Assembly (NCBI GenBank): GCA_027335515.1
Contig: DAHWHT010000382.1
Location: 1 to 7,468 of the forward strand
Direction of reading: 5' to 3'
Origin: Clostridia bacterium
GTDB lineage: Bacteria > Bacillota_E > RBS10-35 > JAJYVN01
Length of the DNA stretch: 7,468 nt
Below the pieces are notes generated by a model that was not told the DNA's origin, ran no database searches, and saw only the letters and a list, made by a program, of their open reading frames with translations. Below are positions 1-7,468 of the stretch, one piece after another; the first letter of the stretch is position 1; every line of letters begins with the position of its first letter. A program made the translations under genes and the position numbers.

Positions 1-267
1 CAAGGCGGTCATCATCTTCGTGGTACTTGCCATGGGCATCCGGCGACGCCCATGCAGCGACCACAGGACCGCCCCGGTGCGAGCGTCCACCACGGCGGCG
101 GCGCGGGCGTGCAGCACCGGGGCAGCGGGAATCCCGCTGGCAGCCTGTCCGACCGCGGGCGCAGCCAGCACCACGGCGCCCACGAGGACGGCCGTCCACC
201 GCCGACGTGGCCTGATGCGCTCATACCACGCACTCAGGCGCGGTCCGTCCGTATCCGCCACCCCCAC
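1..267 (-). CDS. Serine-type D-Ala-D-Ala carboxypeptidase (peptidase S11, PBP5/DacF-like), N-terminal 89 codons only
   Basis: Translating the minus strand from the GTG at 267 gives 89 codons open to the window edge. Residues 17-23 are very basic (RIRPRRR). Residues 24-40 form a hydrophobic segment ending in small residues, so this looks like a Sec signal peptide. From residue 50 the mature domain reads APVLHARAAAVVDARTGAVL, typical of the start of S11 transpeptidase-like domains. MASTTKMMTAL at 79-89 holds the S-x-x-K motif, with nucleophile Ser81 and Lys84. Family members remove the terminal D-Ala from peptidoglycan pentapeptides outside the membrane; DacF has this role in sporulating Bacillus. 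The rest of the protein, including the SxN and KTG motifs, is outside the window. The start may instead be GTG 261; no strong ribosome binding site decides. The gap from the upstream kinase-like gene is only 12 bp and the frame is the same, so co-transcription and translational coupling are likely. Which dac paralogue this is cannot be told. Confidence 0.85.
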   Translation of the reverse strand, partial: MGVADTDGPRLSAWYERIRPRRRWTAVLVGAVVLAAPAVGQAASGIPAAPVLHARAAAVVDARTGAVLWSLHGRRRMPMASTTKMMTAL

Positions 268-272
268 CTGGG

Positions 273-292
273 CGGGTCGTCAACCCGACCCG
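273..292 (-). repeat. Stem-loop spanning the stop codon of the kinase-like gene
   Basis: CGGGTCG at 273-279 pairs perfectly with CGACCCG at 286-292 around a 6-nt loop that contains part of the stop codon (280-282). It lies 5 bp before the GTG at 267 that begins the carboxypeptidase gene. There is no T-run, so it is unlikely to be a terminator. It could tune coupling between the two genes, or be chance in GC-rich DNA. Confidence 0.35.
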
Positions 293-1080
293 GTGCCGCC
301 ATCCCACACACCGGATTCCGCGACCCGCATCCACACCACGGGACCCGAAGAGCGCGCCGTACAAAACGCGCCGACCTCTTCCGCCAATGCGCACACCTCG
401 TCCAAATCGCACACCCAGCCGCGGTGGGGGGACTCCGCACCCGTCTGCCTGGCGTCGGCACCAAGATCGGATGGGGGAAGGACCCTCTGCACGGCAACGG
501 TCGCCATCGATCCGCACTGGCCGGCTTCCACCACCAGATGCACCCCTGGACAACAGGCATCCGTGCTGCGGCGCAGCAAATGCACCAACAATAACCGCAG
601 GCCGGTGGGAGAACAGTTGACCGCCGGTAATTGCTGGACCGCAAAGCGCATCTCAAGCGCCACGCCACAACGGGCCGCATAGCTCCAGGTTCCCGCAACC
701 GCCGTCTCCAACGCAACGGCGAGGTCGCTGCACTGCGGCCCGTCGGCCATGCCCACCGCGCGACTGTATGCGAGCACTTCGTCGACCAGACCCGCAGCCC
801 GCATCGCGGCACGCCAGGCGCGGTCCAAAAAGTCGTCGGCACCCCGCGCGTCCCGCCCACGCGCCAACTGCACGGCAGCACCCACGACCGTAAGCTGGTT
901 CTTCAGGTCGTGGGCCAATCCTTCCGCAAGGTCCTCCAGGGCGCGTTGGCGATGGCACGAAGTCACGGTGCCGTCGTGCGGGTGGCGGGGGATGGATCGC
1001 GATCCCGCCACGCCCATCATCCCTGACGCCCACCCTGGGGGTGGCACCGGATCCCCTGGGAGCATGCCCGCTTCGCCCAT
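280..1080 (-). CDS. Histidine-kinase-like protein with degenerate ATPase domain; possible Spo0B/ChpT-type phosphotransferase
   Basis: A 266-residue protein from ATG 1080. No membrane segment or recognisable sensor domain is visible; residues 1-45 are rich in Pro and Gly. Residues 46-72 (RALEDLAEGLAHDLKNQLTV and onward) are a phospho-acceptor helix with candidate His57 in an HDxxNxL motif. Residues 80-107 (FLDRAWRAAMRAAGLVDEVL, then AYSR) fit the second helix of a dimerisation bundle. Residues 119-212 follow the outline of a HATPase fold, but the N-box equivalent reads LLRRSTDA (168-175) with Arg171 where Asn binds Mg-ATP, and no DxGxG or GxGxG box follows. The final helix and strands (about 224-252, DLDEVCALAEEVGAF then VVWMRV) persist. 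I infer it cannot bind ATP normally and may pass phosphoryl groups between receivers, as Spo0B and ChpT do. A fast-evolving true kinase is the alternative. Start choice is uncertain: ATG at 1065, 1020 or 1017 would also keep the domain. Confidence 0.7.
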   Translation of the reverse strand: MGEAGMLPGDPVPPPGWASGMMGVAGSRSIPRHPHDGTVTSCHRQRALEDLAEGLAHDLKNQLTVVGAAVQLARGRDARGADDFLDRAWRAAMRAAGLVDEVLAYSRAVGMADGPQCSDLAVALETAVAGTWSYAARCGVALEMRFAVQQLPAVNCSPTGLRLLLVHLLRRSTDACCPGVHLVVEAGQCGSMATVAVQRVLPPSDLGADARQTGAESPHRGWVCDLDEVCALAEEVGAFCTARSSGPVVWMRVAESGVWDGGTGSG

Positions 1081-4431: not shown

Positions 4432-4839
4432 CTATTCGGCCGCATCCCGGGGGCAGGCGCCGCCCCCGCGCAAATGACGTTCCACCATCTCCACGAGCGC
4501 ATACACGTCGAACGGCTTGGCCAGAAAATCCTGGGCGCCCGCGGCCGCGCTGGCCGCGAGGCCGCCATCCATTCCTGACAGCATGATCACCGGAATACCC
4601 TCCGCCCCCGATAGGGTGCGCAGGGCGCGGACAAACGCATCCCCGGGGCATCCGGGCAGCAGCAGGTCGGCCAGCACAAGGTCGGGCAGACGCGCCCGGC
4701 AGGCCGCCATCGCGTCCTCGGCGGTGCCGACGGAGACGGTCGCAATCTGATACTGCGCAAGCGCCACCTCGATCAGATAGCGGATGTTGGCTCGGTCTTC
4801 CACCACCAAAACCGTCGGCTTGTGCGGTTGCAGATCCAT
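4432..4839 (-). CDS. Single-domain response regulator (CheY/Spo0F-like receiver)
   Basis: The 135-residue protein is a receiver domain with no output domain. The acidic pair is Glu14-Asp15 in VLVVEDRAN, the phospho-acceptor is Asp58 in DLVLADLLLPG, the switch Ser is Ser88 in PVIMLSGMD, and the conserved Lys is Lys108 in FLAKPFD. The tail after about 123 (RGGGACPRDAAE) is short and unlikely to bind DNA. Such proteins relay phosphate or act by protein contact. Translation starts at ATG 4839 with GGGTGGG about 8 nt upstream. It follows alr by 129 bp on the same strand, downstream of pyrG. In Bacillus, spo0F lies just downstream of pyrG, so a Spo0F-like role is possible but unproven. No cognate kinase is adjacent; the only histidine-domain protein in the window is the degenerate one at 280-1080. 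Confidence 0.92.
   Translation of the reverse strand: MDLQPHKPTVLVVEDRANIRYLIEVALAQYQIATVSVGTAEDAMAACRARLPDLVLADLLLPGCPGDAFVRALRTLSGAEGIPVIMLSGMDGGLAASAAAGAQDFLAKPFDVYALVEMVERHLRGGGACPRDAAE
4448..4468. repeat. Perfect stem-loop at the convergent ends of the HAD and receiver genes
   Basis: CGGGGGC (4448-4454) pairs fully with GCCCCCG (4462-4468) around a 7-nt loop. It lies in the last codons of the receiver gene and 37 nt past the stop codon of the HAD gene. There is no T-run on either strand, so a canonical intrinsic terminator is not supported. It might slow or stop convergent transcription. Confidence 0.3.
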
Positions 4840-4968: not shown

Positions 4969-6195
4969 TCACGCTTCGCGATCCGCGCCCAGCGCGCCGC
5001 GCGACGCGGCACCGGCGTTCATCCGGTCCGCGGCAGTCGGCGATGCCGCGAGGGCCGCGGCATCCTCCACGATCCGCGCATACATGGCGACACCGTCGCG
5101 CAGAAAGACGCGGGCCACGTGCCTCCCCACCGCCGCCGGGCGGACACGCAGTGTGGCAACGCCCGCATGCTCGACCTTGCTGCAATCGACCATGGTCTGC
5201 TGCATCCCCACGCGGCCCAGAATCGGAACCGCCTGCCCGCCCATCTCCACCGGGCCGGCCGCCCCGGCGCGCCAGCCAAACCGGCCAAGCAAGGCGCGCG
5301 CCAACGCCGCCAGCAGGGTGCGCGGGCGGCGATACGGGCCGGCGGGCACCATCTCCAATCCATCCGCATACCCGACCGGGAGGACCGCGACGCGTGTGGC
5401 GTGACGCGCCCGCCATTGCGCGCCGTATCCCACCGTTGACCCGGCTGGCAGGGTGCGAAGCTGCGCAGGTTCGGCGCGCAGATAAAAGGCATGGCGCAGC
5501 ACCAGGTTCTGCGGCGCACCCGGCGGGCGGTCCCCATAGAGCGCGGAGCCCACCCGCACCATGTCCAGCCGCGCCTCGGGCACGGAAACCAGGGCCGCAC
5601 TGGCCGCGGCATGACGAAGCGCAAAGACCAATCCCCCGGCGGCCGCCGCGTCGACCGCGGCGAGAAACCGCGCCAATTGGCGCCGGGTCGGATCGGCCAG
5701 CCAGCCCTGGGCGAAGTGGGTGTAGACACCCTCCCATTCGATGGGGTCGCCCAACTGCGCCAGGGCGGGTGCTGCGGCCGCGAAGTCGCTCGCCGCGATC
5801 CCATACCTGCCCATGCCGGAATCGCATTTCAGGTGCGCCCGCGCACGTACGCCAAGCCGAGCCGCGGCGGCCGCCAGCCGCCTTGCACCCTCGACATCCC
5901 CCACCGTGAGGGTCAGGCCTGCGCGCAATGCCGGCAACAGGTCAACCTCGCGCGGCGGGGTGAAGACAAGCACCGAAGCGTCCTGCCCGTCCGCGCGCAA
6001 TCGCAGACCTTCCGCGACCGTGCTGACCCCGAGCCCAGACGCACCGGCTGCCAGCGCCGCGCGGCCGACCTCCGAGGCGCCATGGCCGTAGGCGTCCGCC
6101 TTCACCACCGCCAGCAGACGGCAGTCACGGGCCAGCAGGGACCGCACCGCCCTGACGTTGGCCGACAGCGCGTCGAGGTCGACCTCCGCCCACAC
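4969..6195 (-). CDS. alr: Alanine racemase (PLP-dependent, fold type III)
   Basis: Alr interconverts L- and D-alanine and supplies D-Ala for peptidoglycan. The N-terminal barrel starts WAEVDLDAL and carries the PLP lysine, Lys32, in LLAVVKADAYGHG. HLKCDSGMGRYG (121-132) matches the conserved carbamylated-Lys/Arg region. DMVRVGSALYG (211-221) holds the Arg that contacts the pyridine nitrogen. Tyr257 in STVGYGAQW is the second catalytic base, from the partner subunit. VLPVGYADG (271-279) is also typical. Differences from well-studied enzymes: HAxNSAA is HAAASAA (195-201), the usual CMDQ is GMQQ (330-333), and there is an extra stretch around 290-312 before the last beta motif. At 408 residues it is slightly long, with an Ala-rich tail. 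GTG 6195 is the only canonical in-frame start, yet it begins three or four residues later than usual. It lies 117 bp after pyrG and may have its own promoter there. Confidence 0.93.
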   Translation of the reverse strand: MWAEVDLDALSANVRAVRSLLARDCRLLAVVKADAYGHGASEVGRAALAAGASGLGVSTVAEGLRLRADGQDASVLVFTPPREVDLLPALRAGLTLTVGDVEGARRLAAAAARLGVRARAHLKCDSGMGRYGIAASDFAAAAPALAQLGDPIEWEGVYTHFAQGWLADPTRRQLARFLAAVDAAAAGGLVFALRHAAASAALVSVPEARLDMVRVGSALYGDRPPGAPQNLVLRHAFYLRAEPAQLRTLPAGSTVGYGAQWRARHATRVAVLPVGYADGLEMVPAGPYRRPRTLLAALARALLGRFGWRAGAAGPVEMGGQAVPILGRVGMQQTMVDCSKVEHAGVATLRVRPAAVGRHVARVFLRDGVAMYARIVEDAAALAASPTAADRMNAGAASRGALGADREA

Positions 6196-6312: not shown

Positions 6313-7468
6313 TCAGGCCCGTAGCTGCCGCAGCCGCTGCGCCCGATAGCCGAGCGCCGCCGCGACAAAAGCGACAAAGAGCGGGTGGGGTCGATTCGGC
6401 CGCGAACGAAACTCCGGATGGTATTGCGTCGCCACAAACCATGGGTGGTTTGGCAGTTCGATGCACTCCACCAGACCGCCCTCGGGCCAGACGCCGCTGG
6501 TCCACAGACCGTGCTCGCGCAGGACCGGAAGGTACGACGCACTGAGCTCCAGGCGGTGGCGGTGGCGTTCGCTGACTTCAAGCGCGGCATAGGCGCGGGC
6601 GACGGAGGAACCCTTGGCCATGCGGCACGGGTAGTTACCCAACCGCATCGTCCCCCCCAGGTGCCGAACGGCTTTCTGTTCCGGAAGCAGATCGATGACC
6701 GGATGCGGGGTGTCCGGCTCAAACTCGGTGCTGTGCGCACCCTCAAGTCCGCAGACATCGCGCGCGAACTCGACCACGGCAAGTTGGAGGCCAAGACAGA
6801 GCCCGAAAAACGGCACCGCCTGTTCGCGCGCGTACCGAATCGCGGCGATCTTGCCCTCCACACCCCGGGGGCCGAAGCCGCCTGGAACCAGGATACCGTC
6901 GCAATGGGCGAGGCTCTCGTCGAGATCCCCGGCACAAAGGCCTTCGGCATTGATCCACCGGATCTCCACGCGCGCATCGTTTGCGGCCCCGGCGTGGCAA
7001 AGCGACTCCGCGACGCTGAGGTAGGCATCGTGCAGCCCGACATACTTCCCCACCAAGCCGATCGCAACGCTCTTGGAGGGATCGGTGATCCGCTCCACAA
7101 TCCGCTGCCAGTCATCCAACTCCGGCGGCCGTTCCCGCAGACCGAGGCGCCGGACCAGCAGGTCGCCCATCCCCTCCGCCTCGAGCAACAGGGGGACCTC
7201 GTAGATGGTTTCCACGTCCACGTTCTCGATCACCGCGCCTGGAGCAACATCGCAAAACAGGGCGATCTTCTCCCGCATCTCGCGCGACAGCGGCCGTTCG
7301 GAACGGGCCACAATCACATCCGGCTGGATACCGATGCTCCGCAGTTCCTTGACGCTGTGCTGCGTGGGCTTGGTCTTCTGCTCCCCGCCCTTGTCAAGGT
7401 ATGGCACCAGCGTCACATGCACGAACACGGTGTCGTCGCGGCCGAGCTCGGCCCGCAACTGTCGGATG
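6313..7468 (-). CDS. pyrG: CTP synthase, C-terminal 384 residues (N-terminus beyond the right edge)
   Basis: PyrG aminates UTP to CTP using ATP and ammonia from glutamine. The visible part begins IRQLRAELG, in the last third of the synthetase domain, and stays open to the edge; roughly 155 residues with the ATP-binding loop are missing because of the window, not a mutation. The synthetase part keeps HVTLVPY, the KTKPTQHSVKELRSIGIQPD block and LFCDVAPGAVI. The glutaminase domain follows VAIGLVGKYVGLHDAY. It has the oxyanion loop VPGGFGPRGVEGK, the nucleophile Cys in FFGLCLGLQLAVVEFARD (residue 224 of this fragment), LGGTMRLG, ERHRHR, and the catalytic His-Glu in YHPEF (350 and 352). GGFGPRG and RWINAE resemble Gram-positive enzymes rather than those of enteric bacteria. 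The gene is first of the visible minus-strand series pyrG, alr, receiver. Confidence 0.97.
   Translation of the reverse strand, partial: IRQLRAELGRDDTVFVHVTLVPYLDKGGEQKTKPTQHSVKELRSIGIQPDVIVARSERPLSREMREKIALFCDVAPGAVIENVDVETIYEVPLLLEAEGMGDLLVRRLGLRERPPELDDWQRIVERITDPSKSVAIGLVGKYVGLHDAYLSVAESLCHAGAANDARVEIRWINAEGLCAGDLDESLAHCDGILVPGGFGPRGVEGKIAAIRYAREQAVPFFGLCLGLQLAVVEFARDVCGLEGAHSTEFEPDTPHPVIDLLPEQKAVRHLGGTMRLGNYPCRMAKGSSVARAYAALEVSERHRHRLELSASYLPVLREHGLWTSGVWPEGGLVECIELPNHPWFVATQYHPEFRSRPNRPHPLFVAFVAAALGYRAQRLRQLRA

Follow-up and report, generated by a model that had tools for sequence, protein, structure and literature searches.

In a stretch of 7,468 nucleotides from a Clostridia bacterium (contig DAHWHT010000382.1 of GenBank assembly GCA_027335515.1; the whole stretch is called the window below), we identified a minus-strand gene at positions 280 to 1080 whose product is a degenerate histidine kinase and probably acts as an ATP-independent, dimeric histidine phosphotransferase. 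In its modeled structure, the protein keeps the fold of the kinase core, and the family to which it belongs conserves the His, Asp (or Glu), and Asn of the acceptor motif and has lost the ATP-binding boxes. Its gene is linked to, and co-occurs with, that of a stand-alone receiver domain (4432 to 4839), and the genomes that carry the two possess Spo0A and show no match to Spo0B. That the kinase-like protein is a phosphotransferase, taken alone, appears quite likely, and, given such an activity, Spo0A is a fairly likely target. The full reading, in which a homodimeric phosphotransferase derived from a sporulation-kinase-like kinase relays phosphoryl groups from the linked receiver to Spo0A in the place of Spo0B, comes close to an even chance without quite reaching it.

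A kinase-like protein without ATP-binding boxes

The gene and its parts are as follows.

280..1080, minus strand: degenerate histidine kinase, 266 amino acids (aa) (open reading frame [ORF] with an ATG start, family searches, and AlphaFold model)
760..948, minus strand: DHp (HisKA) helix pair, residues 45 to 107 (Pfam HisKA at 48 to 108, modeled helices, and a nonsynonymous-to-synonymous substitution ratio [dN/dS] of ~0.04)
910..912, minus strand: codon of His57, the proposed phospho-acceptor (invariant in 26 of 26 alignment rows)
316..738, minus strand: CA-like (Bergerat fold) domain without ATP boxes, residues 115 to 255
568..570, minus strand: codon of Arg171, at the place of the N-box Asn (profile alignments with true kinases)

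HisKA is the sole Pfam match of the protein (E = 1.3e-5; 25.6 bits, just missing the cutoff of 26.9), with no match to HATPase_c at E ≤ 1. The AlphaFold model (mean predicted local distance difference test score of 80) has an N-terminal pair of helices (residues 37 to 74 and 78 to 107), followed by a helix (120 to 137), a strand (141 to 146), a helix (158 to 174), two strands (181 to 189 and 192 to 200), a helix (227 to 235), and two final strands (239 to 242 and 247 to 253), and structure comparison placed it with the Bergerat-type histidine kinase core fold. The original prediction, which was made from the sequence alone, had placed the motif HDLKNQL, with His as residue 57, on a two-helix bundle, and this is borne out by the ORF translation, the HisKA match, and the modeled helices. 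It had also read the N-box Asn as replaced by Arg171 (LLRRSTDA), which is where profile alignments place the N-box Asn of true kinases; the glycine boxes as missing, and neither a G1 nor a G2 motif is present at the expected places (a DGGTG/GTGSG string is confined to the C-terminal tail); and the last helix and strands as persisting, as they do in the model. Residues 201 to 226, which correspond to the G1 and ATP lid region of kinases, are mostly modeled with low confidence and are poorly conserved. For the window gene and its orthologue in genome G001, which share 64.6% identity across 263 residues, the DHp part has a dN/dS of ~0.04 (dN, 0.068; dS, 1.59) and the CA-like part one of ~0.13 (dN, 0.17; dS, 1.34), values that are rough because dS exceeds 1 and is near saturation.

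Family-wide loss of the ATP-binding site

A protein search at E ≤ 0.01 recovered 25 proteins, counting that of the window, and a profile search, which scored only the 7,998 candidates sharing the most words, recovered 26 at E ≤ 1e-10, comprising 24 of the first 25 and 2 new ones and missing the known member P0020. None of the resulting 27 proteins is kinase competent; identity to the window protein ranges from 30 to 65% in the family. The motif AH[DE][LV][KR]NQ is found in 26 of them, the exception (P0003) being a fragment without the DHp part. An alignment of 26 rows (A3), made up of the window protein, 23 other proteins from the first search (P0003 being excluded as a fragment), and the genes of genomes G003 and G357, shows His57, Asn61, Gln62, and Thr64 to be invariant, with Asp (24 rows) or Glu (2 rows) immediately after the histidine. 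At the N-box column, the Asn is replaced in 25 rows, by Trp in 14 and by Arg, Ala, Tyr, Leu, Gly, His, and others in the remaining 11. The pair of DxGxG and GxGxG motifs is not in place in the family rows, and HATPase_c is matched at E ≤ 1 by 0 of 25 members and 0 of 4 further sequences (a true kinase scored alongside gave 8.9e-27); HisKA is matched at the same threshold by 24 of the 25 (best E value, 1.9e-9). Mean conservation is 0.85 in the first DHp helix, 0.61 in residues 115 to 200 of the CA-like part, and 0.27 in residues 201 to 226.

The single row with an N-box Asn, P0013, keeps it in the stretch LLRNAAEH and has a GVGL remnant at the place of the kinase G2 box, and in several other members an Asp is found close to the position of G1 with the glycine pattern gone. 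These are traces of a lost ATP site, and P0013 is a possible intermediate between a kinase and a phosphotransferase. Relatives with intact N and G boxes, which the original prediction had taken as the sign of local decay or a sequencing error, are absent among the 27, although P0013 retains the part just described. We reject such decay or error because the family at large is without the boxes and the ORF appears to be under purifying selection. So far as literature searches go, the family is apparently unpublished; in the portions available, the literature on Spo0B in Sulfobacillus, Thermaerobacter, or Symbiobacterium, including PMC3533761, describes no replacement.

Probable descent from ordinary kinases

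Profile-profile comparison with hhalign placed the family at 99.2% (E = 2.7e-19; 151 aligned columns) against an alignment of nine true kinases (A6), which had been found with the family profile, a circumstance that favors the kinase match. These nine are the box-bearing kinases from 15 control loci, with L009, L010, L013, L017, L018, and L107 left out, and in all nine the motifs lost by the family, namely, the N-box Asn, DxGxG, and GTGLGL, are intact. In the alignment, L[IV]RNGLDAMPxGG of the kinases falls on LLRWxADxxPPGx of the family, and the catalytic Asn therefore most often became Trp. Against five Spo0B proteins from the host order (A5), the same comparison gave 11% (E = 0.0028). Since the values are 99.2% against kinases and 11% against Spo0B, the protein is best seen, as far as sequence comparison can tell, as a stripped kinase and not as a descendant of Spo0B.

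It had been proposed that the protein might be an unrecognized member or analogue of the group formed by Spo0B and ChpT. The analogy is supported by the conserved phospho-acceptor His, the family-wide loss of the ATP site, the absence of a kinase-competent homologue among the 27 proteins, the linked stand-alone receiver, and the lack of a Spo0B match in the carriers. Membership in Spo0B is rejected on profile, Pfam, and locus: besides the profile values, SPOB_a (PF14689) is matched at E ≤ 1 by 0 of 25 family members, and the family gene has dac, panD, or thyX as its neighbor and is not located between rpmA and obg. In three local Spo0B proteins, SPOB_a scored 1.5e-8, 3.9e-4, and 4.3e-6, the last two under the cutoff, and one of the three also matched HisKA (3e-4); the model is described as too general to define Spo0B in the part of PMC6136694 that deals with it.

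A linked stand-alone receiver

The remaining features of the window are as follows.

4432..4839, minus strand: stand-alone receiver domain, 135 aa (Response_reg, 1e-17)
4666..4668, minus strand: codon of receiver Asp58, the expected phospho-acceptor, in DLLLPG (invariant in 5 of 5 rows)
1..267, minus strand: start of a D-Ala-D-Ala carboxypeptidase gene that runs off the window (Peptidase_S11)
4969..6195, minus strand: alanine racemase, between the receiver and pyrG (Pfam)
6313..7467, minus strand: CTP synthase gene pyrG, with its 5' part off the window (Pfam)

We propose the receiver as a Spo0F-equivalent phosphodonor. The order pyrG-alr-receiver is shared by the window and genomes G001, G002, G003, and G357, and the neighborhood of CTP synthase has been used as a locator of Spo0F, according to a passage of PMC6136694; the other places in which a stand-alone Spo0F is expected are near fbaA and transaldolase. 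The host order is represented by 13 genomes (G001, G002, G003, G306, G329, G345, G354, G355, G356, G357, G358, G359, and G360), and close orthologues of the receiver (169 to 232 bits) occur in four of them, the same four that have the kinase-like protein, and the best of the remaining receivers in the 13 scores 86.5 bits. The profile used (A2) was built from the receivers of the window, G001, G003, and G357, so that the last three match by construction and only the G002 match is independent. The two genes share a contig, ~3.4 to 8.3 kb apart, in the window, G001, G003, and G357 and are on separate contigs in G002. Searching proteins with the receiver as the query recovered 16 at E ≤ 1e-20; P0011 and P0032 (63525) and P0007 and P0035 (14994) are taken as linked pairs because their longest-contig sizes are equal, contig names not being shown.

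As a separate observation, pyrG is followed by a PAS-HD protein, with no receiver, in the Spo0B-bearing genomes G354 and G359 (L115, 1 to 884; L120, 4724 to 5806).

Distribution of the family and of Spo0 proteins

A scan of one genome per species yielded four loci, L001 to L003 in Bacillota bacterium metagenome-assembled genomes (MAGs) and L004 in a Phycisphaerae MAG (30% identity; E = 1e-5). In the host order, the family is present at E ≤ 1e-18 in G001, G002, G003, and G357 (4 of 13), of which the first two were already inside the profile of the kinase-like protein (A1) and the last two not knowingly so. The wider profile A3 gave, at E ≤ 1e-4, seven more matches in the host order, none scoring above 49 bits and each in a frame of at least 413 aa. 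The four that were read (L008, L011, L108, and L109) are ordinary kinases with boxes, and the others are in G358, G345, and G356. At E ≤ 1e-12, 9 of 299 genomes of the phylum had a match. That of G001 scored 293 bits and the other eight 50 to 58 bits, and the five readable ones among these eight are again ordinary kinases. Among 61 genomes of the class, G002 was the sole match at 1e-18.

Spo0A_C is found in 12 of the 13 host-order genomes (all but G360) and thus in all four carriers; at the spo0A loci read, the upstream gene resembles spoIVB, with a Pfam Peptidase_S55 match in both cases tested (G001 and G359). SPOB_a is found in five genomes, none of them a carrier (G306, G354, G359, and G360 above the cutoff and G329 below it), and in all five the Spo0B gene lies between rpmA and obg. 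At the L27 loci of the other eight, i.e., the four carriers, G345, G358, G355, and G356, no Spo0B lies between rpmA and obg, and the last four have neither Spo0B nor a family protein. The rpmA-obg gap of G002 holds a 77-aa ORF without an HxxxN motif. In a midpoint-rooted tree from L21, L27, Obg, PyrG, and Spo0A (some genomes being without some of these markers), the four carriers, G345, and G358 form one group (support, 60), G355 and G356 are its neighbors (98 for all eight together), and the five genomes with Spo0B fall together (100). Read most simply, the tree has Spo0B lost once and the pair gained once, together with that loss or later.

A search with Bacillus subtilis Spo0F matched all 13 genomes, at 26 to 39% identity among the matches listed. 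Sixty receiver loci were scanned for patterns, further receiver matches without a locus being outside the scan, and QGILEVD occurs in none of the 56 readable ones. Besides the four orthologues, the receivers that apparently stand alone are L083 (G358, beside spo0A), L133 (G359), and L139 (G003). No receiver was found within ~1.5 kb of fbaA at any of 10 fbaA loci, PF01116 being unmatched in 3 of the 13 genomes and transaldolase not having been looked for.

Separately, the stand-alone receiver of G358 (L083, 1 to 1138; interface EEILLVD) lies directly upstream of spo0A, where other loci apparently have spoIVB, and it is another candidate Spo0F.

Interface residues

For B. subtilis, PMC6136694 gives, in the part concerned with them, the interface residues QGILEVD for Spo0F, QLGNSL for Spo0B, NELLEYD for Spo0A, and TAGFQL for KinA, and, for D. 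acetoxidans, QVGLQL for Spo0B and NEFLDFD for Spo0A. At the corresponding offsets (H+7, 8, 11, 12, 14, and 15), family proteins with the motif read TVASQL in 16 of 26 cases and TVAAQL in 2. The receiver orthologues read R-[NST]-[IV]-L-[VIL]-A-D, the Spo0A proteins of the carrier clade NEFLQ[YF]D, and kinases L008, L011, and L012 TAGFQL, as published for KinA. A Spo0A face close to the published ones, KinA-type kinases, and a middle pair with faces of its own therefore fit a rebuilt middle and prove nothing; for the kinase-like protein and Spo0A, these residues are suggestive at most, and we do not use them as proof.

A proposed phosphorelay and its alternatives

From these data we infer that an ordinary sporulation-kinase-like histidine kinase would have lost its sensor and its ATP-binding site and become a homodimeric phosphotransferase. 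A KinA-type kinase would phosphorylate the receiver at 4432..4839 on Asp58, the receiver would pass the phosphoryl group to His57 on the first of the two bundle helices, and from there it would go on to a receiver that has an output domain, Spo0A being the likeliest, so that the phosphotransferase would stand in for the absent Spo0B. We count it in favor of this course that a transferase lacking kinase activity and a receiver lacking an output are each intermediate components and that the known donor of Spo0A, itself a receiver, is missing. That the whole middle of the relay was rebuilt in one uncultured Bacillota clade, Spo0B having been lost and a former kinase and a new pyrG-side receiver having taken over, we put forward more tentatively.

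For clostridia, a review (PMC11210211) considers, in the section at hand, direct phosphorylation the likeliest alternative and allows for a novel phosphorelay; the divergence, origin, and distribution of Spo0B are treated in PMC12826061 and PMC3533761, here drawn on in extract. According to PMC12826061, Spo0B-TM of Paenibacillus does not make up for a spo0B deletion in B. subtilis. If correct, our proposal would describe a third mode besides direct phosphorylation and the Spo0F-Spo0B relay, and it would replay the supposed origin of Spo0B itself from a kinase. It would be a nonorthologous replacement of Spo0B in which a kinase turned into a phosphotransferase within a pathway of known output, with P0013 as a possible halfway form, and the absence of Spo0B from a genome would not have to mean the absence of a phosphorelay.

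Several observations weigh against this proposal. The carriers form one clade and hence one event, so that the co-occurrence is without an independent replicate and is not usable as statistics. The clade members G345 and G358 have no match to either gene, which is perhaps a gap, because no pyrG is found in G345 and the G358 contig ends within the alr beside pyrG. The sister pair G355 and G356 has Spo0A without Spo0B at rpmA-obg and without the family protein, and Spo0A can therefore evidently manage with another input, for example direct phosphorylation. The receiver interface departs from the published QGILEVD of Spo0F at 4 or 5 of 7 positions; Spo0F was not identified in the Spo0B-bearing genomes either, and the Spo0F comparison led nowhere. 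SPOB_a is unspecific and also matches 5 of 14 control genomes, Escherichia coli included, and those genomes that have public titles are metagenome assembled. Finally, a carboxypeptidase beside the kinase-like gene and an alanine racemase beside the receiver would fit an envelope pathway.

The last point leads to the strongest alternative, an ATP-independent phosphotransferase with an output other than Spo0A, such as a regulator of cell wall (D-alanine) metabolism. The D-Ala-D-Ala carboxypeptidase gene starts 12 bases downstream of the kinase-like gene (by eye, the same neighbor recurs in L045, L047, and L048), the alanine racemase gene lies by the receiver, and G355 and G356 have Spo0A with neither Spo0B nor the family protein. 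However, no other DNA-binding receiver was seen between or right beside the two genes in the loci read, an ordinary regulator-kinase pair in G001 being ~13 to 15 kb from the receiver (L046, 12089 to 14583), and the lack of Spo0B in every carrier would be left unexplained. We regard this alternative as unlikely, if worth keeping in view.

Somewhat less probable still is a dedicated phosphatase of the linked receiver or a titrating inhibitor of an intact kinase, with no phosphate passed on. The pattern H-x-x-x-N has been linked to phosphatase activity in kinases, and the family motif has this form, with Asn at H+4. The acceptor His is nevertheless retained in all rows with the DHp part, and a pure inhibitor need not keep it. 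A precedent points both ways: PhyP of Sphingomonas, which has a degenerate ATPase domain, was first proposed as a phosphatase, but phosphotransfer by PhyT in vitro is reported in the same source, as far as its text was available (PMC5898713).

That the protein is still a kinase, binding ATP through an unusual site, we consider very improbable. The model keeps a Bergerat-type fold, P0013 has its Asn and GVGL, and Spo0B from one Bacillus species is credited with autophosphorylation and ATPase activity in an extract of PMC12826061; set against these are the replaced N-box Asn in all rows but one, the missing pair of glycine motifs, and the poorly conserved lid region. Least probable of all is a decaying, functionless gene. 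The lost catalytic boxes might suggest one, but selection and conservation already contradict it, with the low DHp dN/dS, an ORF conserved across the family, and a panD gene within 3 kb in the window and 4 of 4 carriers.

Comparison with known systems

Like Spo0B of B. subtilis, the kinase-like protein combines a HisKA-like hairpin bearing HDxxN with a CA-like domain without kinase function, has a stand-alone receiver as its likely partner, and occurs in hosts with Spo0A; unlike Spo0B, it belongs to a family without an SPOB_a match, with a profile similarity of 11%, and at a different locus. ChpT of Caulobacter crescentus is likewise a dimeric kinase-like phosphotransferase with an atypical Bergerat fold, in whose crystals neither ATP nor ADP was seen bound, according to the portion of PMC3433190 available. 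It comes from an unrelated lineage, however, and no phosphotransferase family is among the Pfam matches of our family. ChpT is not among the 18 solved structures matched by sequence, and neither Spo0B nor ChpT is among the 50 structure matches listed, which excludes nothing and is no test of a closed pocket of the ChpT type.

The PhyT/PhyP protein of Sphingomonas melonis is also kinase-like with a degenerate ATPase domain, and we take PhyT to be PhyP renamed. It differs in being, by prediction, membrane anchored with a periplasmic sensor and in having an HRxxN motif and a role in the general stress response. In vitro, PhyT moves phosphate from the single-domain receiver SdrG to PhyR, as stated in an excerpt of PMC5898713, and this is the closest published precedent for the proposed working. 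The chemistry has precedents in Spo0B, ChpT (PMC3433190), and PhyT with SdrG (PMC5898713), each source being drawn on in part.

The ordinary HisKA/HATPase kinases of the phylum (e.g., L008 in G003 and L012 in G011) are clear homologues of the family but carry the N and G boxes (9 of 9), and the family instead reads TVASQL or TVAAQL in 18 of 26 proteins. DivL of Caulobacter (PDB code 4q20) is the top Foldseek match among those listed and is a kinase-like regulator. The 4q20 entry is titled a tyrosine kinase, and DivL is not known to have the acceptor His. The window receiver resembles Spo0F in standing alone near CTP synthase (pyrG-alr-receiver) and differs from it in its interface residues.

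Further features of the gene neighborhood

Upstream neighbors of the kinase-like gene vary among carriers. In G357 (L039, 8997 to 10261), thyX (Pfam Thy1) overlaps it by 4 bases, and a thyX-like gene also precedes it in G002. An Rfam scan of the window gave 0 matches. The string TGTCGAA, which we take to be the core of the Spo0A box, has 0 matches in the window against 0.54 expected, and the scattered matches in the loci of relatives were not judged meaningful. Between the divergent kinase-like and panD genes, positions 1138 to 1196 are strongly conserved with G001 and contain an inverted repeat (TGTCGTCGACA). A 4-base gap beyond this repeat argues against an extended panD frame, and the segment is a possible regulatory site.
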